A stretch of DNA of 64,000 nt from Sphingobium indicum BiD32 (GTDB taxonomy: Bacteria; Pseudomonadota; Alphaproteobacteria; Sphingomonadales; Sphingomonadaceae): the NCBI RefSeq assembly GCF_000382885.1, contig NZ_CAVK010000085.1:1-64000 (forward strand), read 5' to 3'. Under the pieces are notes generated by a model, which saw nothing but the letters and a program-made list of their open reading frames with translations, made no database searches and was not told the DNA's origin. The translations under genes were made by a program, and so were the position numbers. Below, piece after piece: positions 1 through 31,991 of this stretch (positions are counted from its first letter, which is position 1; each line of letters begins with the position of its first letter).

Positions 1-104
1 GGGGCATGCCCCCCATGATCTGATGATCAAACAGGCGGCTTAACGACAACCGGGATTAGCTTAACTCAGCCGCCAAACTGTCCAAAAAGGCGGGACCACC
101 TCAA
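1..104. mobile_element. Possible insertion-sequence end (left edge)
   Basis: The first hundred bases have no complete gene. A stretch near 66-102 (CAGCCGCC, then TGTCC, then GGACCACCTCA) resembles the short non-coding tail seen after IS3-type transposase genes. The open frame that resumes to its right has no start codon, as expected if an element had landed inside a gene. The transposase itself would lie outside the window, so this is a guess from memory of such ends, not a proven boundary. Confidence 0.25.
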
Positions 105-272
105 ACGGCGAAGAGCGGCGGCGGCATTGCAAGCGGGATACGCAGCAAGCGCGATACAAAGATAGCGGTTATTGAGTTTGCGTTGGACGGCTTGAACGAG
201 GATGCTGACGCGAACGCGAGTTTGAACGCGGAAATGCAGCAAAGGCTTGCGCGTGTGGTGAAACTGAAATGA
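60..272 (+). pseudogene. 3' fragment of an unknown gene
   Basis: An open frame runs from base 60 to a TGA at 270-272. From about base 105 it reads like a real protein tail: a Lys/Arg segment, then a helix containing IAVIEFALDGLNEDADANAS, ending ARVVKLK. It has no ATG or GTG that could serve as an upstream start. Its stop overlaps the ATG of the next gene (ATGA at 269-272), the usual sign of translational coupling, which supports both frames as coding. The 5' part seems to have been replaced by the sequence at the window edge. Product unknown. Confidence 0.4.
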
Positions 273-631
273 CAATTAAACTCGCGTTCGATTTTTGCGA
301 TTTCGATCTTCCGTTTGATGACGAGTTGCGACGGCGTAGCGGAAAGGCGCTTACAGAGCGGACAACGGCGTTTTCGATGATAACAATCGACGCGGATTTC
401 GAGCGCGAGATATTGCAATATCCGCATAAGCTTGATCTGCATTTTCAGGAAATGGTAGATTACATCAAGAAGGCTGGGGAAATGCGCGAGGCGTTTGATA
501 CGCACGCAATTCAACGACGCACTGCACAGATTTTCTACAGCGACGACGATGAACGCGATGATCTTGGTTTCAGGCTTCTCTATTTTTTTGAAACCGCAGA
601 GGACGCAAGCGCAGGGCGTTTCTTGCCGTAG
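269..631 (+). CDS. Hypothetical protein, accessory region
   Basis: A 120-residue acidic, soluble protein without signal peptide or membrane segment; I do not recognise the family. It starts with ATG overlapping the stop of the preceding gene fragment by ATGA, so the two were probably one operon. Aromatic-rich patches lie near the N-terminus (FDFCDFDLPF) and C-terminus (LLYFFETAEDA). Base composition is poorer in GC than the housekeeping genes further right, in keeping with the mobile character of this end. It could be a plasmid- or phage-derived orphan. Confidence 0.5.
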   Translation: MTIKLAFDFCDFDLPFDDELRRRSGKALTERTTAFSMITIDADFEREILQYPHKLDLHFQEMVDYIKKAGEMREAFDTHAIQRRTAQIFYSDDDERDDLGFRLLYFFETAEDASAGRFLP

Positions 632-700
632 CGCTTCATGGTGCAGATGCAGCGCGTTTGGGTAAACGCTACCGTGACGGCAAAAAACTGTGCAGCGAAT

Positions 701-767
701 GTCACATTTAGGTCGATTTCTAACTTTTGCGACAGCAGACAGTTTGGGTCTTAGAACCTAATGTGAC
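701..767. promoter_or_regulatory. Inverted repeat before the resolvase gene (res-like site)
   Basis: GTCACATTTAGGT at 701-713 and ACCTAATGTGAC at 756-767 form a near-perfect inverted repeat (one extra T in the left arm), with a second partial match, TTCTAA inside the left side and TTAGAA inside the right. The right arm ends 8 bases before the resolvase ATG. Serine resolvases of the Tn3 type bind paired inverted half-sites next to their own gene, both to recombine and to repress it, so this is a good candidate res or operator site. Function is inferred from position and symmetry. Confidence 0.5.
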
Positions 768-775
768 GAGGGAAT

Positions 776-1312
776 ATGATCGTAGGCTATGCGCGTGTCA
801 GCACAACAGGCCAAAGCTTGGATGTGCAGTTGGGCGAGCTTGCAGCGCAGGGATGCGAACGCATCTATGAGGACAAGGCGACAGGCACGAATTGCGAACG
901 CGCTGGGCTCATAGAGATGATGGGCTTTGTGCGCGAAGGCGATACGATTGTCGTAAGCAGGCTTGATCGTTTTGCACGTTCGCTGAGCGATCTGTTTCAG
1001 TTGCTGGATCAGCTTGCGGCCAAAGGCGTTGCGTTTCAATGCGTGCATCAGAACATTGACACAAGCAGCAGCACGGGAAAGCTGACGCTGGCGATCTTGG
1101 GCGCTGTAGCAGAGTTTGAAAACGATTTGCGGCGAGAACGGCAGCGTGACGGCATTGCAAAGGCGAAATCCAACGGAATTTACAAGGGGCGCAGAGCAAT
1201 GGTTAGCGCGGAGCGTGTGAAGGAATTGATAGCGAGCGGAACGGCGATCAGTGAAATTGCACGGCAGCTTGGTTGTCATCGTCAAACTGTTTATCGCTTG
1301 GCGCGATCTTGA
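776..1312 (+). CDS. Serine recombinase (resolvase/invertase family)
   Basis: A 178-residue small serine recombinase. The N-terminal catalytic domain begins GYARVSTTGQSLDVQ with the nucleophile Ser9 and Arg7; the conserved SRLDRFARS motif follows near residue 61-69. A long E helix (EFENDLRRERQRDGI) is followed by a C-terminal helix-turn-helix containing ISEIARQLGCHRQTVYRLA. Length and order match Tn3-type resolvases and DNA invertases. Start is the ATG at 776 behind GAGGG. The protein would cut and rejoin DNA at paired sites through a Ser-linked intermediate. No transposase is seen nearby, so it may resolve a plasmid, an island or a transposon lying to the left. Confidence 0.93.
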   Translation: MIVGYARVSTTGQSLDVQLGELAAQGCERIYEDKATGTNCERAGLIEMMGFVREGDTIVVSRLDRFARSLSDLFQLLDQLAAKGVAFQCVHQNIDTSSSTGKLTLAILGAVAEFENDLRRERQRDGIAKAKSNGIYKGRRAMVSAERVKELIASGTAISEIARQLGCHRQTVYRLARS

Positions 1313-1326
1313 ACGAAATTTACTAT

Positions 1327-1366
1327 GTAGATAATTTCTGTGCAGGGGTTTTCGACGTAGATAATT
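1327..1366. repeat. Pair of 10-base direct repeats
   Basis: GTAGATAATT occurs at 1327-1336 and again at 1357-1366, start-to-start spacing 30 bases, roughly three helical turns. They sit 15 bases behind the resolvase stop codon. In-phase short direct repeats of this kind can be binding sites (iterons or recombinase accessory sites), but two copies are few and chance is possible in AT-rich DNA. Confidence 0.35.
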
Positions 1367-1587
1367 AAATTTCGAGCGCGATAAATATATTCGTGAGACG
1401 CGCTGCGTTGCACGACATATGCTGCTTTCGAAAAACACTTGCTGGGACTAAGACCAGATGGATGAGCGCGCAGCACGCGAACGTGAAGACGAATTGGTCG
1501 TATGACGGCAGGAACAAACGCAATCATACGAACTTAGGAGTGCAAATCTCCTAAACCTTGGAACGAGGTTCAGTGGCACACGTAAAA

Positions 1588-1845
1588 ATGCAATCACAAG
1601 ATGCAAGCTCTGACTGTTCCATTGTCCAACTTGCACCCACACATCGAAATTTTGGAAGTTCGTTGTGTGGCACCGTTAGGTGCGTCAGCGATGACGCGGT
1701 AAAAACATCTGCAAACAAGTCAATACTAACCACTTGGCTGCGTAATAGCAGCGATGCTTCCAATAGCGTGCGGACCCAATCTCAACTCAACGAAAGGGCG
1801 AACGCAATTTTTACTCTCTTTTCTGCAGAGCAGAAAGGGGGGTAA
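1588..1845 (+). CDS. Doubtful small open frame
   Basis: An 85-codon frame from an ATG at 1588, extendable to a TTG at 1558. The product is rich in Ser, Asn and Thr with scattered Cys and has no recognisable domain. Codon use does not look strongly biased and no clear ribosome-binding site precedes it. Listed because it is the only plus-strand frame of any length in this stretch; it may well be non-coding. Confidence 0.2.
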   Translation: MQSQDASSDCSIVQLAPTHRNFGSSLCGTVRCVSDDAVKTSANKSILTTWLRNSSDASNSVRTQSQLNERANAIFTLFSAEQKGG

Positions 1846-2054
1846 AAAGCGATTGGTTTCCCATCTAATCTAACGAAGGCAGAAATCATACGACGCAACA
1901 ATTGGCAGCGACGAAGCGCGAAACGCTTGTTGCTGTAGATTGTGAAGGCGTTGGATTGCGTGAGCGCAAGCGAATGTAAGCCATATAACCAGCAACGAAT
2001 TGCGAAGCGGATTTGCGATCGACGAGAGCGAAAATTCACATAGATCGCGCGAAT

Positions 2055-2243
2055 ATGAGATACGAAATTTCCGTGCAAGATTTGCTGGATCACGTTGCGG
2101 AATTTCTGGACTTGGACGAGCGATTTTGGAATTCGCGTGAAGGCAGATTTGAGTGGTGCGGTAGGTGGGTGAATTTTCGCAAGGGCAGCGACGTGATCTT
2201 GCTGGTCGTGGACGGCGAAGCTTATGAGGTGGTGCGTGTCTGA
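2055..2243 (+). CDS. Small hypothetical protein
   Basis: A 62-residue acidic protein starting MRYEISVQDLLDHVAEFL, then an aromatic middle (EWCGRWVNF) and a hydrophobic C-terminal strand (VILLVVDGEAYEVV). The frame can be extended upstream to a TTG at 2013, but the ATG at 2055 gives the more natural N-terminus. The family is not recognised. Its end overlaps by 22 bases the end of the minus-strand gene on its right. The fold looks small and compact, as in plasmid or phage accessory proteins. Confidence 0.42.
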   Translation: MRYEISVQDLLDHVAEFLDLDERFWNSREGRFEWCGRWVNFRKGSDVILLVVDGEAYEVVRV

Positions 2244-2443
2244 GCAGTAGGCGCGAAGGCAGCTTTGCGAGCGCGTTCAAGATTTTTGCGCTGCTTCTGG
2301 TGATCCTTGACGCTTTGTAGAGCTTTCTTGGCGACAGCAATCTGGCGTTCTTTCGCTGCAACCAGTGATTGCTCAGGCGTCAATGGCTTACGTGGCTGCT
2401 TGGGCTTGCGCGGCTTGTTGGTGCGGAATTCGTAAAATCTCAT
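2222..2443 (-). CDS. Small Lys/Arg-rich helical protein
   Basis: A 73-residue very basic protein. After a short start it has a Pro/Lys tract (KPRKPKQPRKP), then a long predicted helix rich in Lys, Gln, Ala and Arg (residues about 22-62), and a Thr-rich tail. Composition of this kind suggests nucleic-acid binding, but no known domain is seen. It is transcribed away from the membrane protein starting at 2503, leaving a shared 59-base promoter gap. No strong ribosome-binding site precedes its ATG. Confidence 0.42.
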   Translation of the reverse strand: MRFYEFRTNKPRKPKQPRKPLTPEQSLVAAKERQIAVAKKALQSVKDHQKQRKNLERARKAAFAPTAQTRTTS

Positions 2444-2502
2444 ATCGTATTTATGAGGACACAGCTAAGCTTACACGATCTGACAGAATTAGCATTGCGG
2501 GG

Positions 2503-3186
2503 ATGGTGATGGGGCTGGCAATTTGCAGTGCTTCAATTGACTGGGCAGCAACAGGAACAATGCTACAGGGCATTGGCACAATTGGCGGTGTAGGCGCTGT
2601 TGTTTGGGCTGCGATCAAAGGTGCTAATACATTTGATGCGTGGCGCAGGCAGAAACTGGCTGAGCGCAAGCAAGATCAGGCAGAGCGAATTCTAACAGCG
2701 ACATACAGGGCACGGCGCGCGCTTGCATATGTCCGTGGTGTGATGATGTGGGGTCACGAGTTGCACGCTGCGGAAGAGCAGATGAAGGAGAAGGACGGTT
2801 GGGTAGCGCAGACGGAGGCAAGGCAAAAGCGGTTGGTGACTGCTCAGGCTTTCTACAACAGGATTAATCGCACGAAGGATGAACGCGAGGCGCTTGATGA
2901 GTGTCTTCCAATGGCGCGCGCACTGTTTGGCGAAGAGCTTGAGCAGGCCATTGAGAAGCTGAACCATCAATTTTGGATCGTGCAGGTTGATGTGGACAGC
3001 TACGTTGACGACGAAGGCGGCGCAGATGCTGAATTCACGAAGAAGCTTCGTCGTGGAATGTATGCGATCAAACCACCAGAAGGCGAGGTGAATGAGGTCA
3101 CGGAGGCGATGGAAGCTGCTGTGGCTACGATTGAACGGATTTGTTTGCCAGTTTTGCGTTTGGAGGCCAGTGCAGCGGCGACCTAA
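2503..3186 (+). CDS. Membrane-anchored hypothetical protein with coiled-coil tail
   Basis: A 227-residue protein from the ATG at 2503. The open frame extends to 2365, but that part overlaps the divergent gene and reads poorly. Two hydrophobic segments occupy residues about 1-12 and 22-42, separated by a short polar turn; then comes a basic stretch (RRQKLAERKQDQAERI) and a mostly helical cytoplasmic domain with many Glu, Lys and Arg to residue 200. The layout is that of a small inner-membrane protein with a cytosolic helical domain. The family is not recognised. It is the last gene of the AT-richer accessory region. Confidence 0.62.
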   Translation: MVMGLAICSASIDWAATGTMLQGIGTIGGVGAVVWAAIKGANTFDAWRRQKLAERKQDQAERILTATYRARRALAYVRGVMMWGHELHAAEEQMKEKDGWVAQTEARQKRLVTAQAFYNRINRTKDEREALDECLPMARALFGEELEQAIEKLNHQFWIVQVDVDSYVDDEGGADAEFTKKLRRGMYAIKPPEGEVNEVTEAMEAAVATIERICLPVLRLEASAAAT

Positions 3187-3311
3187 ACACACCTTTACAC
3201 GTTTCTTACACGCGAAATTCCAGACCGTTCTAATATGTTGAGAAAACGTTATAAATTTCAGCGCCGGTTTAGCGAAGCGCTAAGCGTTTCAGGCACTGCC
3301 AGACTATCGAG

Positions 3312-3365: not shown

Positions 3366-3490
3366 AGATCCGTTCGTCCTGAGTAGCCATTGAGCGAAGT
3401 CTAAATGGCGTATCGAAGGACTCGTCCAGCGCCTGATGCTTCGATACGAGCCTTCGACAAGCTCAGTCTCTACTCAGCACGAACGGATCT
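3366..3490. repeat. Large REP-like palindrome
   Basis: The outer arms AGATCCGTTCGTcCTGAGTAG (3366-3386) and its inverse at 3470-3490 match at 20 of 21 bases. Inner arms repeat the theme (GTATCGAAGGAC against the later CTTCGATACGAG). The units TTCGACAAGCTCAG and CGAACGG recur at 17624-17649. Repeats of this family are scattered between genes in sphingomonad genomes; this one is a paired, full-length copy at the border of the accessory region. Confidence 0.75.
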
Positions 3491-3523
3491 TGGACCGCCC
3501 AACGTCATCTTCCACCCTCCCAT

Positions 3524-4837
3524 TCACCCCTGTGCCCGCACCGCGTTGCGGCTGGCGAGGCCCATCATCAAGAACCCGGCAACGGCCGCGACGATATTGG
3601 CGCTGGCAGCGCCAATCGTGCCGTAGAGCGGCAGCAGCGCGGCCTGCATCCCCAGCAACAGGGCGGTCGAGATAAAGGTGATGCGCAGCGACAGGCCCGC
3701 CCGGTCGGTCGCCATCAGTAGCGGGCGATAGCTGACCCCGATCAGGTCGATGCAGGCGGCGATGCCCAGCAGCAGCAGCAGCGGATAGGCGGGGAGGAAC
3801 TCCGGCCCGGCGATCAGCCCCAGCAGCGGGCGGCCGATGAGCAGGATCAGGGCGATGATGACCGCGCCCGCCACCAGCGCCAGCCGGTTGGTGCGGCGGA
3901 ACAGCGCGCCCAGCGCTTCGCTCCCCTGGTTGCCGCTGCGCGACAGTTCGACGAAGATGCTGCGTGACAATAGCCCCGAAATCTTGGTCAGCGAATTAGC
4001 GAGCTGGTTGGCGAGGCGATAGAGGCCCGCGCCGACCGGGCCGACGAACAGGCCGACCACCAGCACCGCGACCTGCTGCCCCATGGATGACAGGCTGGTC
4101 TGGAGATTGGTGGCAGTCAGGAAGCCGATGATGCCGGGATTTTCCGTCCGCGCGTCGAGCGCCCGGCCCGCCGTCCACTGGCCGATCCGCCCGCGTCCTT
4201 CGCGCAAAGCCAGTCCCCAATAGGCGATGGCGCACAAGAGTTCGGCGGCACCCCAGGCGATCAGGAAACCGGTGATGGACGGCATCAGCCATAGCGCCGC
4301 GACTGCGCCGATCATCCGTCCGACCGGAATCATGGTTTCGGCGAGCGCGGCGGAATCGAACCGGTCGAACAGGCGCAAGATCCCAGTCGGGCTGGACCGG
4401 ATGGTGATCATCATCACCATGCAGAAGATCCAGGCCTGCCACCCCATGCCCGGCGGCAGTTCCAGCAGCACGCCAAAGGCCAGGATGATGAAGGCGGCGA
4501 TCGCCCCGCCGACCGCGGCAGAGGCGAGGTCGATCAGGATACAGAAGCGCAGCACGCGGTTGAGCGCGTCGCCATTGCCGGTCGCCATATGGGTCTGGCC
4601 ATAGCGCACGACGATCTGCCAGCTTTCAAAACTGGTGATCGTCTTGATCACTGTCGCCGCGCTCAGGACCAGCGCGAACCGCCCGAAATCGGCGACGCCA
4701 AGCGTGCGGGTGACGATGGCGAGATAGGCAAGGCTCAGCACCGCGCCCACGCCCTTGCCCCCCAGCAGCCAGCCGGTATTGGCCAATATGCGGGAAAAGC
4801 CGTCCTGTGCTGCGCTGGGCTTGGGTTTCGCCATCAT
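3524..4837 (-). CDS. Polysaccharide (lipid-linked oligosaccharide) flippase, Wzx/MATE-like
   Basis: A 437-residue integral membrane protein with about 12-14 hydrophobic segments, beginning with ILANTGWLLGGKGVGAVLSL and ending with a Val/Ala-rich helix and a short basic tail. The pattern fits Wzx-type exporters of the MOP superfamily, which flip undecaprenyl-linked glycans across the inner membrane. The start is taken at the ATG at 4837 behind GGAAAG; the open frame runs further upstream but through a repeat. It is divergent from the nucleotidyltransferase at 5025 and probably exports the product of the cluster 5025-8509. The substrate cannot be read from sequence. Confidence 0.85.
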   Translation of the reverse strand: MMAKPKPSAAQDGFSRILANTGWLLGGKGVGAVLSLAYLAIVTRTLGVADFGRFALVLSAATVIKTITSFESWQIVVRYGQTHMATGNGDALNRVLRFCILIDLASAAVGGAIAAFIILAFGVLLELPPGMGWQAWIFCMVMMITIRSSPTGILRLFDRFDSAALAETMIPVGRMIGAVAALWLMPSITGFLIAWGAAELLCAIAYWGLALREGRGRIGQWTAGRALDARTENPGIIGFLTATNLQTSLSSMGQQVAVLVVGLFVGPVGAGLYRLANQLANSLTKISGLLSRSIFVELSRSGNQGSEALGALFRRTNRLALVAGAVIIALILLIGRPLLGLIAGPEFLPAYPLLLLLGIAACIDLIGVSYRPLLMATDRAGLSLRITFISTALLLGMQAALLPLYGTIGAASANIVAAVAGFLMMGLASRNAVRAQG

Positions 4838-4870
4838 TCTGCTTTCCAGCCTTCGCCGCATTGTAATTCC

Positions 4871-4933
4871 CGTTCGTTTCGAGCGAAGCCGAGAAACGTT
4901 GCGCGGTTTCTCGACTTCGCTCGAACCGAACGG
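4871..4933. repeat. REP-like palindrome between divergent genes
   Basis: CGTTCG..CGAGCGAAG.CGAGAAAC is mirrored by GTTTCTCG.CTTCGCTCG..CGAACG around a short centre, giving a long imperfect hairpin. It occupies the gap between the flippase start and the nucleotidyltransferase start and shares its CGAACGG end with the element at 3366-3490. Confidence 0.62.
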
Positions 4934-5024
4934 ATGAAGTTGAAGTCGATCCGCTCTAGGCGTTGCGAACGTCAGTTTGAAGCCGCCTTTTTTTCGGCCA
5001 ATTTCCCCTCTAAAGACCCGCGCC

Positions 5025-5789
5025 ATGACCATCACCAAAGCCATCATCCTGTCCGCCGGGCAAGGATCGCGCCTGTTGCCGCTGACCCGCGACGTGCCCA
5101 AATGCATGATCGACTTTAACGGCCGCACACTTATCAGCTGGCAGATCGCAGCGCTGGTCGCCAATGGCGTGACCGACATCGTCGTGGTGACCGGCTTTCG
5201 CACCGAACGGGTCGAGGATCATGCGCTGCAACTCTATCGCGAGACCGGCGCGCGGATACGCTGCGTGTTCAATCCCTTCTTTCAGGTGGCGGATAACCTC
5301 GGCACCTGCTGGATCGTGCGGGAGGAGATGGACCGGGACTTCATCATCCTGAACGGTGATACCATCGTGTCGGACGAAATCGTCGCGAAGCTGATCGCCG
5401 GAACGCAGGATGCGATCACCGTCACGGTCGATGTGAAGCCCGACTATGATGATGACGATATGAAAGTGAACCGCGACGAAAGCGGCCGCCTGCACCATAT
5501 CGGCAAGCGGCTGTTGCCGCCCGACACCAATGCCGAATCGATCGGGATGCTGGCCTTCACCGGCGAAGGCCCGGCGATTTTCCGCAACCAGATCGACCAG
5601 ATGATGCGGACGCCCGAAGGCGTCGAACGCTGGTATCTGCGCGCCATCGACATCATCGCCAAGGGCAACCGGGTCGGCACCGTCTCGATCGAGGGGATGG
5701 AATGGCAGGAGGTCGATTTCCATCAGGATGTCGAGGCAGCGAAGGCGCTGACGGCCAAGTGGGTCGCCGAGGGGCGCTACGGCCGATAA
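5025..5789 (+). CDS. Nucleotidyltransferase (LicC/IPCT-like, sugar- or polyol-phosphate)
   Basis: A 254-residue nucleotidyltransferase of the GT-A fold. The nucleotide loop is AIILSAGQGSRLLPLTRDVPK (residues about 5-25); NGDTIV near residue 112 carries the metal-binding Asp, and EWQEVDFHQDVEAA near the C-terminus is the second metal motif typical of LicC and inositol-phosphate cytidylyltransferases. Such enzymes join CTP or another NTP to phosphocholine, sugar phosphate or inositol phosphate. The start is the ATG at 5025; earlier in-frame codons lie in a poor leader. With the CDP-alcohol phosphotransferase at 6348 it makes a plausible donor-and-transferase pair. Confidence 0.85.
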   Translation: MTITKAIILSAGQGSRLLPLTRDVPKCMIDFNGRTLISWQIAALVANGVTDIVVVTGFRTERVEDHALQLYRETGARIRCVFNPFFQVADNLGTCWIVREEMDRDFIILNGDTIVSDEIVAKLIAGTQDAITVTVDVKPDYDDDDMKVNRDESGRLHHIGKRLLPPDTNAESIGMLAFTGEGPAIFRNQIDQMMRTPEGVERWYLRAIDIIAKGNRVGTVSIEGMEWQEVDFHQDVEAAKALTAKWVAEGRYGR

Positions 5790-5913
5790 GCGGCGCGGGA
5801 AAAAAGAGACGCGGCTATGGTTTGACCTTGTTCCCCCTCCCGCTGGCAGGGGGGGGCAGGGGGTGGGCCTGCTCAAGATTGCTTCAACCCTCCCAAAAAT
5901 CAAAGCGTTGGGA

Positions 5914-6351
5914 TCATTTCATTTCGTTATCGAAACAATTCTTCATCCACGCTTTCACATTGTCCAGCTCACTGTCCAGCTTGACCGCAGACCCAAGGTC
6001 TGGCTGCCCCGGCCAGCCTGAGTCCGCCACAGTCAAGCCCGCCGCACTGCGTGTCCCCTCATAGCGGGGGATGACGTGGAAATGGACGTGGGGATCGACC
6101 ATCATCAGCATCAGATAGTTGATCTTCGCATAGCCCACCGCCTTTCCTAGCGCCGTCTCGATCGCTGCGGTGACGGTCTTGAGTTCGGCATGGGCCTGCG
6201 CGGGCAGGTCGCCGAACGCCGTCGCGTCGCTTTTCGCCGCCAGGATCAGCGACCCCAGTGTCGGCTGGGCCGGGCGGAGCAGCACGACCCAGTGGGTGAA
6301 CTCCGCGATCAGCGTGGCGGGCCAGCCGAATTTCTCGATAGTGGGGTTCAT
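5914..6351 (-). CDS. HIT family protein
   Basis: A 145-residue protein with the histidine triad HVHFHVIPRY (residues about 88-97) of nucleotide hydrolases and transferases, which act on the alpha-phosphate of nucleotide conjugates through a His-nucleotide intermediate. An N-terminal strand HWVVLLRPAQPTLGSLIL and the L-K-x-V helix also fit the HIT fold. The start ATG overlaps the stop of the CDP-alcohol phosphotransferase by 3 bases, so it is the last gene of a tightly coupled operon. In this setting it may hydrolyse a leftover or dead-end nucleotide conjugate; this role is inferred. Confidence 0.9.
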   Translation of the reverse strand: MNPTIEKFGWPATLIAEFTHWVVLLRPAQPTLGSLILAAKSDATAFGDLPAQAHAELKTVTAAIETALGKAVGYAKINYLMLMMVDPHVHFHVIPRYEGTRSAAGLTVADSGWPGQPDLGSAVKLDSELDNVKAWMKNCFDNEMK

Positions 6352-7445
6352 GGCCGGGCCTGCTCCATCCAGCTGACGATCGGCTGGCCGGACCGTTTGA
6401 CGCCATAGGCTTGCGCCAGTCGCACGGCGTGAACGACCAGCGAGATCATCGTCCACCAGGCGAGTGCGATCAGGCCGATGTCGGGGCGTCCGAACAGCAG
6501 CGACACGAACAGGATCACCATATTGGGATTGCGCCGCGCGGTGATGAGGCGGAACTGGCTGTCGAAGCGTTGCCAGACATGGATGTCCATGCCGAAATCC
6601 TTGAGGAACATCCCCTCTATCAACCGTTGCAGCACATATCCCGCAATCACCGCCGCCATTACCAGCGCGAATGTCTGGGTCGAAAGCGCCAGCCCCCAAT
6701 AGACCAGCCCGGTCCCCCAGAAATGCCACCAGAAGGGCGGATGGACCAGATCGACGCCATGGTCGATCACATTGCCCCATTTGGAGGAGGTGATGGTACA
6801 GCGGGCGAGTTTCCCGTCCACCGTGTCCAGCACCATGAAGATAAAGCCGGAGAGAAAGCCGGTCCAATACATGCCCTGCGCGAACAGATAGGTGGCGACC
6901 AGGCAGAGGGTAACACCAATCACCGACACCATATTGGGGGTCATGCGCAGCTGCGCCGCGATGCGGGTCAGCACCAGTGCCAGTTCGGGCCATAGATATT
7001 TGGTGAGCAGGTCCGTGACGCCCTTATAGGCACCGAAATAGCTTTGCCGCTCGATCGCCCGCCGGGTCGATGGGTCAAGTTCGCGTACCATCGGCTGTTC
7101 GAGCTTGCGCAACTGGCGGTTGTAGAGAGCGCGGCCGTCCGACAGATCGATGACATGCGTAGCGGTCAGCGGATCGCTGCCTTGCGGCACCTGGCCCACG
7201 ATCGGCGCGTTGCCCCACACAAACAAGGTGCCCGGTGTTTCGAGCGCGAGGCGCAGCAGTAGCGGATCGAAGGCGTAGGCCAGGTTGAACAGCAGTTCGT
7301 GTCCCGCCGCCAGCGTGCTGCCATTCTTCGCGGCGCTTTCCGCCATGCGGCGGCTGCGCTCGGCATTGGTCATGCCCCAGATCGGCGTCGCATTGTCGCC
7401 GATCAGGCGGACGGGACCAAGTGTGGTGGTGAGGGTCTGGCTCAT
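6348..7445 (-). CDS. CDP-alcohol phosphatidyltransferase family membrane protein
   Basis: A 365-residue protein with the full signature D-x2-DG-x2-AR-x8-G-x3-D-x3-D, seen as DTVDGKLAR then G-NVI-DHGVD (residues about 202-227), inside a domain of six hydrophobic helices. The N-terminal 140 residues are soluble, and the approach to the membrane domain (YKGVTDLLTKYLWP, then TPNMVS) resembles di-myo-inositol phosphate phosphate synthase and related enzymes that join a CDP-polyol to an alcohol. It overlaps both neighbours by 4 bases or fewer. The donor is probably made by the nucleotidyltransferase at 5025. It is distinct from the PssA at 31206. Confidence 0.88.
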   Translation of the reverse strand: MSQTLTTTLGPVRLIGDNATPIWGMTNAERSRRMAESAAKNGSTLAAGHELLFNLAYAFDPLLLRLALETPGTLFVWGNAPIVGQVPQGSDPLTATHVIDLSDGRALYNRQLRKLEQPMVRELDPSTRRAIERQSYFGAYKGVTDLLTKYLWPELALVLTRIAAQLRMTPNMVSVIGVTLCLVATYLFAQGMYWTGFLSGFIFMVLDTVDGKLARCTITSSKWGNVIDHGVDLVHPPFWWHFWGTGLVYWGLALSTQTFALVMAAVIAGYVLQRLIEGMFLKDFGMDIHVWQRFDSQFRLITARRNPNMVILFVSLLFGRPDIGLIALAWWTMISLVVHAVRLAQAYGVKRSGQPIVSWMEQARP

Positions 7446-8509
7446 GGATGCGCCTTCGCGAAGTTCAGGATGAGGTCGGCCTGCCGCTGGGACGCGGGGA
7501 TGGGGGAAAGATCGATGGAATCGCGCATGGCCGCTTCCTGAGCAGCAACGAAGCCCGGTTGCAAGTCTGCGGCGCGGGCTAGGGCGGCGGGCAGGGCATC
7601 GGTGCTCTCGATCACCTGGCCGAGCTTCCAGTGGGCGAAAGCTTCGCTGCTGGCATCGCGCCGGTCGAGATTGAGGAAGATGCAGGGGCGCGGCTGGATG
7701 AGGAATTCATAGACCTGGCTGGACACGTCACCGAGATAGAGGTCGGCGCTCATCGTATAGCTCATGTCGATCGAGTGGCGGCTGCCCATGTCGACGTGGA
7801 TATGCGGCGCGGCGGTGACGATGGGTGGGACCGCGCGCGCCAGCTTGGTGTGGGGGGCGATGATGACGTTCCAGTCGGTCAGGGCTTCCAGCGCAGCCAG
7901 CACGGCGGGGCCATGGGTGACCCAAGACGAGAGTTTGGGGTCGAAATGGGGATTGTAGAGCAGCACCGGACGGTCATCGGCGAAGAATCGCTGGCGGGGT
8001 GCCTTCAGCTCAAATTTGGGATAACCGCCGACGGCAACCGTATCGGGCGTGCAAAGGTCGCGGTCGATCAGGCGGCGGCGATCCTTTTCGCCTGCGACCA
8101 GCGTCAGGTCGAAATCGGCATGGCGTTTCTTGTAGCCACCTTCGCGGTCCCCCGCGCCATGTTTGATGAGGATGAGGCGGGCGGCAAAGCCGGGGACGCG
8201 GCGTGCCCAGGCGGTGGAAATCTCGGTCGTCACAAGCACGGGAAAGCGGGCGATGGCGGGGTAGTTGAGCAGCAGGGTGGCAAGCCGCGAAGGCTGGCGG
8301 AACAGCGAGTCGGCGCGGCCGGGCGGGCGGCGCAAACGCACCGGGATCAGCCGTTTTTCCGGGTCGTAGCGCGCGACCAGCGCCAATATCTGGTCCGAGG
8401 GTGAGAGGATGCTGACCCGCACGCCGTTGCGGCGCGCCAGCTCCAGCGCGGCGGGCAGCCAGTGATAGAGTTGCTGTGCTTCGGCAATGGCGAGAAAGGC
8501 GATATCCAT
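7442..8509 (-). CDS. TagB/TagF-like glycerophosphotransferase or GT-B glycosyltransferase
   Basis: About 355 residues from the ATG at 8509; a longer start at 8536 with AGGCG before it is also possible. The C-terminal half has GDVSSQVYEFL followed by PCIFLN, the pattern by which CDP-glycerol glycerophosphotransferases bind the nucleotide, and the middle has IKHGAGDR, reminiscent of their HG motif. These enzymes build phosphodiester-linked polyol chains such as teichoic acid. It is the first gene of the operon running down to 5914 and overlaps the next by 4 bases. The alternative is a GT-B glycosyltransferase of unknown donor. Confidence 0.65.
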   Translation of the reverse strand: MDIAFLAIAEAQQLYHWLPAALELARRNGVRVSILSPSDQILALVARYDPEKRLIPVRLRRPPGRADSLFRQPSRLATLLLNYPAIARFPVLVTTEISTAWARRVPGFAARLILIKHGAGDREGGYKKRHADFDLTLVAGEKDRRRLIDRDLCTPDTVAVGGYPKFELKAPRQRFFADDRPVLLYNPHFDPKLSSWVTHGPAVLAALEALTDWNVIIAPHTKLARAVPPIVTAAPHIHVDMGSRHSIDMSYTMSADLYLGDVSSQVYEFLIQPRPCIFLNLDRRDASSEAFAHWKLGQVIESTDALPAALARAADLQPGFVAAQEAAMRDSIDLSPIPASQRQADLILNFAKAHP

Positions 8510-30293: not shown

Positions 30294-30474
30294 GCGCCTG
30301 TTCGCCTTCTTCACTTTGGGTGGATTTGCGAAACGCCCTAGGCAAAGCGCGGCCAATGTTCAACCGTGCAGGCGGCGATTCTGGCGATGCGGCCAAGGTC
30401 GGAATATGGGTGAGGATACATAGCCCGGCATCGGTCGTTGTCAGGGCGAGGGTCTCTCCCTAAAGACGGTGGCT

Positions 30475-31209
30475 ATGGAAAATAACGAGATCACGATCGC
30501 TGCTGGCGGCAATATCAAATGGCGGTTCCCCCCGGTTCACCCGGAAGGGGTGAAATTCGGCCTGATTGCTGCGGCCATCACCGGGATTTTCTTCCTGCTC
30601 GGCTGGGAAGTGGTCGGCTGGCTGATGCTGATCGTGACGATGTGGGTATTGGCCTTCTTCCGCGATCCCGTGCGGGCTGTGCCGCAGGATGAGGGCGCGA
30701 TCATTGCGCCGGCCGATGGTCTCGTCACGCTGATCCAGAAGGTGCCGCCGCCGCGCGAGATGGCGGGTGCGGCAGGGCTGGGCGATCAGCCGCTGATCCG
30801 CGTGTCGATCTTCATGAGTGTGTTCGACGTCCATATCAATCGCACCCCGATCGGCGGGACGATCAAGTCTGTCGTCTATATTTCCGGCAAATTCCTGAAC
30901 GCCGACCTGGACAAGGCGAGCGAGGATAATGAGCGGCAGCATATTTTGGTCGAGCGCCATGACGGTGTGCGCGTCGGCTTCACCCAGATTGCGGGTCTGG
31001 TGGCGCGGCGGATCGTGCCGTTCGTCAAGCCGGGCGATATGGTTGCCGCGGGGCAGCGCATCGGCCTCATCCGCTTTGGCAGCCGGGTGGACGTCTATCT
31101 GCCCGCTGGCACTGCGCCGCGCGTGATCCTGGGCCAGCGGACGGTGGCGGGCGAGACTATCCTCGGCCAGATTGGCGACCGTCGCGTGATCGCGGGTATT
31201 CAACAGTGA
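30475..31209 (+). CDS. psd: Phosphatidylserine decarboxylase, proenzyme
   Basis: About 244 residues. Two hydrophobic segments (residues about 27-60) anchor the enzyme in the inner membrane. The self-cleavage site is the Gly-Ser in [13 protein letters not shown] (Ser about residue 203), which becomes the pyruvoyl group. [13 protein letters not shown] and the DGLVT motif are typical of the short bacterial form. It makes phosphatidylethanolamine. A GTG at 30469 is an alternative start. It overlaps pssA by 4 bases. Confidence 0.94.
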
Positions 31210-31991
31210 GGCAGCGCCGCGCCGTGCCCCGGGGTTTGCGCCGTGGGATCACCCTGCGGATGGTCGCACCCAATGCGGTGACGGCGATGGCGCTATGCTT
31301 TGGCCTGACCGGCGTGCGTTATGGCATATCGGGCGAATGGGAGCGGGCGGTGCTGTCCATCCTGTTTGCCGGCGTGCTGGACGGCCTGGACGGGCGAATC
31401 GCCCGGTTGCTGCGTGGCGAGAGCCGTTTTGGCGCGGAACTGGATTCGCTGTCCGATTCGATTGCGTTTGGTGTGGCCCCTGCGCTGATCCTCTATCTAT
31501 GGTCGCTGCATGCGATGCCGAAATTCGGCTGGATCTTCGCTTTGGCCCACGCCCTGTCCTGCGCGCTGCGACTGGCGCGGTTCAACGCCAATATCGATGT
31601 GGATGTGCAACCCCACAAATCGGCGGGATTCCTGACCGGCGTGCCTGCGCCTGCTGGTGCGGGGCTGGCGTTCGTGCCGCTCTATCTGTGGCTGGTGACG
31701 GGAGAGGATATTTTCCGCGCCTGGTATGTCGTGGCACCCTGGGCCGCGTTCATCGCCTTCCTGATGATTTCCAACATTGCGACCTATACCTGGTCGGCGC
31801 TGCGGCTGCGCAAGCGGATAAGGTTGGAAGCAATTGCCCTGGCCGGGTTGCTGGCAGCGCTGCTGGTGACCGATCCCTGGCTGACGCTGCTGCTGATCTG
31901 TGGCCTCTATGTCGCGCTGATCCCGTTCGGCATCCTGTCCTACGCCAAAGTGCGGCGTCAGCGCGAGGCGGCGGCCGACCCGGCAGCCTGA
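31206..31991 (+). CDS. pssA: CDP-diacylglycerol-serine O-phosphatidyltransferase
   Basis: A 261-residue membrane enzyme of type II. It has the CDP-alcohol phosphotransferase signature DGLDGRIAR-x8[14 protein letters not shown] (residues about 59-85) and six or more hydrophobic helices. It starts with a GTG that overlaps the psd stop. PssA supplies phosphatidylserine to Psd, so the pair forms phosphatidylethanolamine in two steps. CdsA, which makes its substrate, lies further right. Confidence 0.94.

Follow-up and report, generated by a model that had tools for sequence, protein, structure and literature searches.

The closest described system to the locus considered here is the ceramide phosphoglycerate (CPG) and ceramide diphosphoglycerate (CPG2) cluster of Caulobacter crescentus, CC_1152-CC_1168 (CCNA_01210-01226). 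In that organism CpgD is a proven CTP:phosphoglycerate cytidylyltransferase (PMC12275187, PMC13228409) and CC_1159 (CpgA) is genetically required for CPG2 (PMC11324152). The same account names CC_1166 as the potential flippase of the phosphosphingolipid cluster, equates CC_1156 with LptF2 and CC_1155 with LptG2, and predicts CPG2 by BLAST for Sphingomonas wittichii, with the genes scattered over six regions (PMC11324152). Here we analyse a 64,000-nucleotide stretch of Sphingobium indicum BiD32 (the window; bases 1-64000 of contig 178 of a 4.79-Mb draft genome) that carries, at 3524-8509, a cluster of five genes, all with counterparts in the 17-gene Caulobacter phosphosphingolipid region. We consider it very likely, from these homologies, that the cluster is a relocated headgroup module of the CPG2 pathway, gathered beside sdhB in this genus. 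The pathway is of a known kind, already predicted for S. wittichii, and what is new is the arrangement together with the proposed assignment to it of a HIT-family protein and a TagB-like transferase.

The five genes are real. All lie inside the interval and match the expected Pfam families, the TagB-like one weakly, which confirms the families and coordinates of a cluster that a first-pass annotation had described from the sequence alone:

3524-4837, minus strand: MOP-type flippase (PF01943, 48.5 bits)
4838-5024, no strand: short divergent intergenic region separating the flippase and CpgD-type genes; imperfect palindrome (about 4877-4935) recognised by eye
5025-5789, plus strand: nucleotidyltransferase, predicted CpgD-type CTP:phosphoglycerate cytidylyltransferase (PF00483, 54.8 bits)
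5914-6351, minus strand: HIT-family protein, CC_1157 counterpart (PF01230, 25 bits; cut-off 21.5)
6348-7445, minus strand: CpgA-type CDP-alcohol phosphotransferase with a soluble N-terminal part of about 150 amino acids (PF01066, 32.6 bits)
7442-8509, minus strand: TagB/TarL-like transferase, CC_1167 counterpart (PF04464, 14 bits; cut-off 22.1)

Our reference was Caulobacter vibrioides DSM 9893 rather than NA1000 itself. The cpgD gene was located with a published primer and the adjacent genes were read off its own contig (region L089); cpgA was identified by position, beside the lipid kinase gene cpgB and near spt, without a locus tag. CC_ numbers given to genes of regions L089 and L036 are a mapping from gene order and domains. 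Pfam checks in the reference region covered aasR, cerR, spt, CpgB, CC_1153 and CC_1158, and CpgC, cerS, lptF2 and lptG2 were assigned by gene order. We write 'lptF2/lptG2-type' throughout because our own labels for these two genes and those of the published account differ in order.

The five genes and their Caulobacter counterparts

The product of 5025-5789 shares 48% identity with C. vibrioides CpgD over 246 columns (BLASTP, 212 bits, E 3e-73) and no second CpgD-like protein was found in the genome, where the next matches reach 23 bits. Twelve of the 13 published active-site residues (catalytic, CTP-contacting and glycerate-contacting; taken from PMC13228409 and PMC12275187) are identical in the window protein, among them the counterparts of Met147, Lys161, Ser170, Asn90 and Asn110, while CpgD Thr88, which makes a main-chain contact to the cytosine, is replaced by Ala89. 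An alignment of 11 sequences shows the Met147, Lys161, Asn90 and Asn110 positions to be invariant and Ser170 to be kept in 10. The IPCT match is weak (29.7 bits to 4jd0, phmmer), and the family profile of the nucleotidyltransferase reaches LicC at 4e-24 and IPCT structures at 2e-10 to 5e-12. We infer that this protein is a CTP:phosphoglycerate cytidylyltransferase of the CpgD type; a plain glucose-1-phosphate enzyme, the outcome that the first-pass annotation had named as speaking against its own proposal, was not borne out. A specificity for inositol or choline was also considered and rejected, since CpgD and CpgA are much closer to the window enzymes than are IPCT, DIPPS and LicC.

The CDP-alcohol phosphotransferase aligns over its full length, N-terminal part included, with the presumed C. 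vibrioides cpgA product (42% identity over 379 columns, 258 bits). Its CDP-alcohol phosphotransferase signature is intact at residue 207 and is present in all 14 aligned relatives. The IPCT-DIPPS model NF041135 gives 60.9 and 32.6 bits against a cut-off of 580, and the CDP-alcohol family profile matches the IPCT-DIPPS structure 4mnd at 7e-5. The cytidylyltransferase of the LicC/IPCT superfamily and the phosphotransferase do lie on separate genes, as first annotated, whereas the inositol or glycerol phosphodiester then proposed as their product gives way to phosphoglycerate chemistry, phosphoglycerate enzymes being the closest characterised relatives found for both. When the N-terminal part of CpgA was compared by hhalign with the CpgD alignment, as a possible decayed nucleotidyltransferase, the probability was 9 to 13%. 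Single-sequence structure predictions of the CpgA-type and TagB-like proteins had a mean predicted local distance difference test score (pLDDT) of 39.3 and 33.8, respectively, and were not used.

The HIT protein is 54% identical over 124 amino acids to the CC_1157 counterpart (L089:15439-15873, blastp). It matches the HIT superfamily profile and carries the H-x-H-x-H motif, as HVHFHVI at residue 88, and its nearest solved structure by profile is 2oik. The flippase and the CC_1166 counterpart (L089:5813-7141) align over about 415 amino acids by blastp; the start of the window gene was taken as the ATG at 4837, an upstream GTG giving a protein of 559 amino acids. The TagB-like protein is 36% identical to the CC_1167 counterpart (L089:4689-5813, blastp). 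Thirteen of 15 aligned TagB-like relatives match PF04464 at E<=0.1 (best 6.8e-8), and the motifs HG[A/S]GD and GDxSSQxYE are kept in all 15 sequences. A tree built from 22 TagB-like proteins puts the window sequence into a group of four from the genus with 99/100 support; its deep forks are weak and do not settle how this group relates to CC_1167. The three minus-strand genes are joined by ATGA overlaps from 8509 down to 5914, which is consistent with a single translationally coupled operon of the TagB-like, CDP-alcohol and HIT genes.

Further partners of the pathway are found elsewhere in the genome. Contig C220 encodes homologues of spt (54%) and CpgC (41%), contig C67 a cerS homologue (46%) with two lptF2/lptG2-type genes and a CpgB-like kinase, and contig C63 a CC_1153 homologue (37%); for CpgC, cerS and the lpt genes the naming follows gene order in the Caulobacter reference. 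A blastp search of the window gave no CC_1158-like metallophosphoesterase.

The phosphatase type near CpgA varies among the stretches that we looked at. An HAD hydrolase occurs there in three genomes (L073:8934-9650, L074:6666-7349, L153:8614-9300) and a CC_1158-like metallophosphoesterase in 11 of 20 regions from a class-wide set (L147-L152, L154, L155, L161-L163), and no stretch had both. That the two alternate in this way suggests that the phosphatase step is exchangeable. Several clusters also have a divergent second CpgA-like CDP-alcohol phosphotransferase beside lptF2/lptG2-type genes (L155:6169-7527, L162:5031-6410, L163:2-1189, L177:4681-5889). The S. indicum genome holds a fourth CDP-alcohol phosphotransferase match (G000:C21:27557-28018), which hit no NCBIfam family at E<=0.001.

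The surroundings of the cluster are mixed. On one side sdhB adjoins it, beyond the TagB-like gene. On the other, directly beside it, window positions 1-3200 look mobile: about 105 bases at the contig end resemble sphingomonad plasmid stretches, some annotated as IS3-family transposase and with the closest matches in Novosphingobium, Sphingobium, Sphingomonas and Croceicoccus, and a serine resolvase gene lies nearby at 776-1312. A Pfam scan of the open reading frame at 2365-3186 gave no match over cut-off. Imperfect palindromes occur at about 3370-3495 as well as at 4877-4935 and by eye resemble a dispersed intergenic repeat. Further off, at 30469-31991, a phosphatidylserine decarboxylase gene stands beside a phosphatidylserine-synthase-like gene, an ordinary phospholipid pair.

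Conservation of the cluster and co-occurrence of its genes

The nucleotidyltransferase and the CDP-alcohol enzyme are both encoded in 23 of 25 genomes of the genus, S. indicum included, and the other two lack both. Fifteen of the 23 have the two genes within 1.7 kb, four at about 3-4 kb and one at about 12 kb, and in three they lie on different contigs, which may reflect assembly breaks. The arrangement is not due to chance. The splitting of the cluster in related genomes that the first-pass annotation had raised against itself is thus seen in part: the nucleotidyltransferase and flippase genes are about 12 kb from the rest in one of the 23 and on another contig in three, and three have no TagB-like gene at the locus. 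The flippase gene lies on one fetched stretch with the CpgD-type gene in all 23, even in the four where 12 kb or a contig boundary separates CpgD and CpgA, and a genome of another family (G295) has a divergent flippase/CpgD pair between aasR and CC_1153-cerS-lpt-HIT genes (L157). Because the flippase stays with CpgD when apart from CpgA, and because of the pair in G295, the cluster appears to be built from two sub-modules, one of the flippase and CpgD and one of the TagB-like, CpgA and HIT genes.

The HIT gene follows CpgA closely. Across an order-level set of 41 genomes, S. indicum included and with a CpgA-type threshold of E < 1e-60, CpgA-type proteins occur in 26, CpgD-type in 27 and the HIT protein in 26. 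HIT and CpgA agree in every genome, 26 having both and 15 neither, and the single extra CpgD is that of G026. In G033 and G039 the HIT gene is present though on a contig other than that of CpgA. Matches to spt of at least 50% identity are found in 40 of the 41 genomes (G036 reaches only 34%), CpgB-like kinases in 40 and CC_1153-like proteins in 39, so HIT tracks CpgA and not ceramide synthesis as such. Two genomes of the same genus as S. indicum, G010 and G022, lack CpgA, CpgD and HIT and retain spt and the CpgB-like and CC_1153-like genes, a pattern that fits a module whose sole task is to add the second unit. The published description of Zymomonas mobilis as without CC_1159 and CC_1157 (PMC11324152) fits this co-occurrence.

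Beyond the order, in a class-wide set of 289 genomes, HIT and CpgA were each found in 22 and both in 16, with a naive Fisher p of 7e-17 that ignores shared ancestry. In 11 of these 16 a single contig carries both genes, their starts separated by 0.4 to 12.2 kb. Of the 20 class regions fetched, 10 have HIT next to an lptF2/lptG2-type gene, as does C. vibrioides. Two plasmids, one of Roseomonas and an IncP one of Diaphorobacter, share this neighbourhood; on both, HIT lies between an LptF/LptG permease gene and a metallophosphoesterase gene, with one extra annotated gene in Roseomonas. On the Diaphorobacter stretch CpgD is present and spt is not; on the Roseomonas stretch spt is present and CpgD gave no match. 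The former (L177; NZ_CP065408.1 51071-71841) comes from a conjugative plasmid of the betaproteobacterium Diaphorobacter sp. JS3051 and holds homologues of CpgA, CpgC, CpgD, CC_1153, CC_1158, HIT, cerS and two lptF2/lptG2-type genes, together with a weak CpgB match; much of the pathway would therefore be able to move between classes.

A TagB-like orthologue stands at the locus in 20 of the 25 genus genomes. Where the module is present without it, its position is taken by family-4 glycosyltransferase genes (G003 and G023; the two genes in G003 by eye) or by an FkbM methyltransferase-like gene (G006), and the neighbour of the flippase gene in Roseomonas is likewise annotated as a family-4 glycosyltransferase. 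On a simple reading, the last step of headgroup assembly would fall to the partner of the flippase, as a TagB-like or a glycosyl transfer. A TagB-like gene directly adjoins a flippase-like gene in Caulobacter, G182, G260, G033 and G311; in G010 and G023 less than 0.9 kb separates the two. G026 encodes both in one open frame of 820 amino acids beside CC_1153, CC_1158, CpgB and CpgC homologues, and G311 has two TagB-like copies about 0.9 kb apart next to the flippase gene. The two kinds of gene are one gene apart on a Sphingobium plasmid and adjacent on a 24-kb conjugative plasmid of Rhizorhabdus wittichii DC-6 (L180; CP021188.1 898-15857), where the flippase gene is divergent from two tandem TagB-like genes. 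Of the 10 class-set genomes in which a TagB-like match was found, seven encode CpgA too, in a search that scored at most six first-look candidates per genome.

A proposed headgroup module and the alternatives to it

Gene for gene, the five match parts of the Caulobacter pathway by which outer-membrane sphingolipids receive phosphoglycerate. A charged sphingolipid is therefore the probable product, in place of a polymer of inositol or glycerol. According to the model that we propose, ceramide would be supplied by spt, cerS and their partners elsewhere in the genome, phosphorylated by the CpgB-like kinase and converted with CpgC to ceramide phosphoglycerate. The CpgD-type enzyme would form CDP-glycerate from CTP and 2-phosphoglycerate, and the CpgA-type enzyme would transfer phosphoglycerate from CDP-glycerate onto ceramide phosphoglycerate to give the diphosphoglycerate form, with the HIT protein as a dedicated nucleotide-handling accessory of this step. 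The TagB-like enzyme might add an optional further phosphate-linked unit, glycosyltransferase-like genes substituting for it in some relatives, and the CC_1166-type flippase would turn the lipid over before export by LptF2/G2 (Lpt2). The sequence itself shows the homologies of the five genes, their order and the existence of the pathway partners. By analogy, the CpgD step leans on a characterised close relative and the CpgA step on Caulobacter genetics; the functions of the HIT protein and flippase, the function, donor and acceptor of the TagB-like enzyme, and the product made in this organism are predictions.

Several observations weigh against this model. The CpgB-like kinase is only 28% identical to its counterpart, and the flippase, a member of a large family, only 27%. 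In the class set six of the 22 HIT genomes lack CpgA and six of the 22 CpgA genomes lack HIT, and in the class regions the TagB-like gene was seen in only three of 20 and the flippase gene in only four. G010, G022 and G027 encode TagB-like homologues without any CpgA- or CpgD-type protein at E<=1e-60, which argues against an obligate link between TagB-like proteins and CpgD. The search for partners in the S. indicum genome covered spt, cerS, CpgB, CpgC, lptF2/lptG2-type genes and CC_1153, with aasR, cerR and acpR outside it. Finally, the published account calls both CC_1157 and CC_1167 probably unrelated to the pathway, and a legend in its supporting information gives no high cofitness for CC_1157 mutants (PMC11324152). 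A search of the open-access literature by locus name and CDP-glycerate returned, among the matches listed, no assigned role for either protein.

It is conceivable that CpgA, CpgD and HIT serve sphingolipids while the TagB-like and flippase genes form an unrelated surface-glycan cassette about them. Such a cassette would explain the plasmid stretches that carry TagB-like and flippase genes without CpgA or CpgD (L179, L180), the pair in G010, which has no module, and the empty TagB-like position in G003, G006 and G023. It sits poorly with the occurrence of the pair beside aasR (G182, G260) and within the Caulobacter region, with the fused pair among pathway homologues in G026, with the constancy of the flippase beside CpgD in the genus and in G295, with the share of TagB-like class genomes that have CpgA, and with the published cofitness of CC_1167 (0.57 with spt, 0.54 with CC_1159; PMC11324152). 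We regard the unrelated cassette as unlikely; the TagB-like gene (CC_1167) looks like a real part of the pathway. Far less probable is the proposal of the first-pass annotation, a teichoic-acid-like or inositol-phosphate surface polymer made independently of sphingolipids by a split IPCT/DIPPS pair, a TagB-like polymerase and the flippase. The superfamily membership of the two enzymes, the profile matches to LicC, IPCT and 4mnd and the recurrence of the TagB-like protein with the flippase all agree with that proposal; the much greater closeness of both enzymes to CpgD and CpgA, and the counterparts of all five genes in the Caulobacter sphingolipid region, do not. What stands of it is that a TagB-like protein and an exporter share an envelope cluster in an alphaproteobacterium; its polymer yields to a likely sphingolipid headgroup and could come about only through the TagB-like gene.

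One such route would make the TagB-like enzyme a second consumer of CDP-glycerate or a similar CDP-linked unit, which would build a short teichoic-acid-like phosphodiester chain on ceramide phosphoglycerate, to be turned over by the flippase. The reading is suggested by the use of CDP-glycerol in TagB chemistry, CDP-glycerate being its direct analogue. Paired TagB-like copies also recall the primase-plus-polymerase pair of teichoic acid synthesis, and G026 (90% complete, 430 contigs) has CpgD and the TagB-flippase fusion, with CpgA and HIT not detected in it. The TagB-like genes without CpgD in G010, G022 and G027 speak against such a chain, which we hold to be quite unlikely. If headgroup extension by the TagB-like enzyme were true, it would provide a Gram-negative, sphingolipid-anchored analogue of teichoic acid; to our knowledge a teichoic-acid-like polymer on a sphingolipid would be new.

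The HIT protein could in turn be a passenger, a generic dinucleotide hydrolase that stays near the cluster by chance and shared ancestry. Besides the cofitness result for CC_1157, this would account for the replacement of the first histidine of the triad in six of 14 aligned sequences and for the six class genomes that have HIT without CpgA. The agreement with CpgA across the order, two co-losses included, the presence of HIT on separate contigs in G033 and G039, its position beside lptF2/lptG2-type genes, its carriage on the IncP plasmid and the invariance of the second and third histidines point the other way. We hold a passenger role to be rather unlikely, and HIT (CC_1157) looks like a real pathway part, though printed as probably unrelated. 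The headgroup-module model would correct that of Caulobacter by adding CC_1157 and CC_1167, with CC_1166, as candidate members, and its placement in ceramide phosphoglycerate metabolism gives the cluster a defined chemical expectation. In some sphingomonads, sphingolipids are considered to take the role that lipopolysaccharide has in most Gram-negative bacteria. For Sphingomonas koreensis, a species devoid of lipopolysaccharide, sphingolipid synthesis has been described as seemingly essential (PMC11324152).

Comparison with known systems

The window shares two enzyme superfamilies with the IPCT-DIPPS of thermophiles (NF041135, PDB 4mnd) and with IPCT (2xme, 4jd0). Unlike IPCT-DIPPS, the window enzymes are unfused, fall far below the family cut-off and are much closer to CpgD and CpgA. 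The TagB-like protein resembles TagB, TagF and TarL in its weak, repeated PF04464 matches and in a conserved C-terminal D-x-SS-x-x-YE segment that aligns to TarL (8va1); it aligns to TarL by this C-terminal segment alone (E=0.011), however, and lies below the Pfam cut-off. The likeness to Caulobacter is broader, with counterparts of CC_1152 (CpgD), CC_1157 (HIT), CC_1159 (CpgA), CC_1166 and CC_1167 in the window and several other pathway genes elsewhere in the genome. Whereas in Caulobacter these belong to one cluster, in S. indicum the five genes are gathered beside sdhB, in a changed order and orientation and apart from spt, cerS, CpgB, CpgC and the lptF2/lptG2-type genes.

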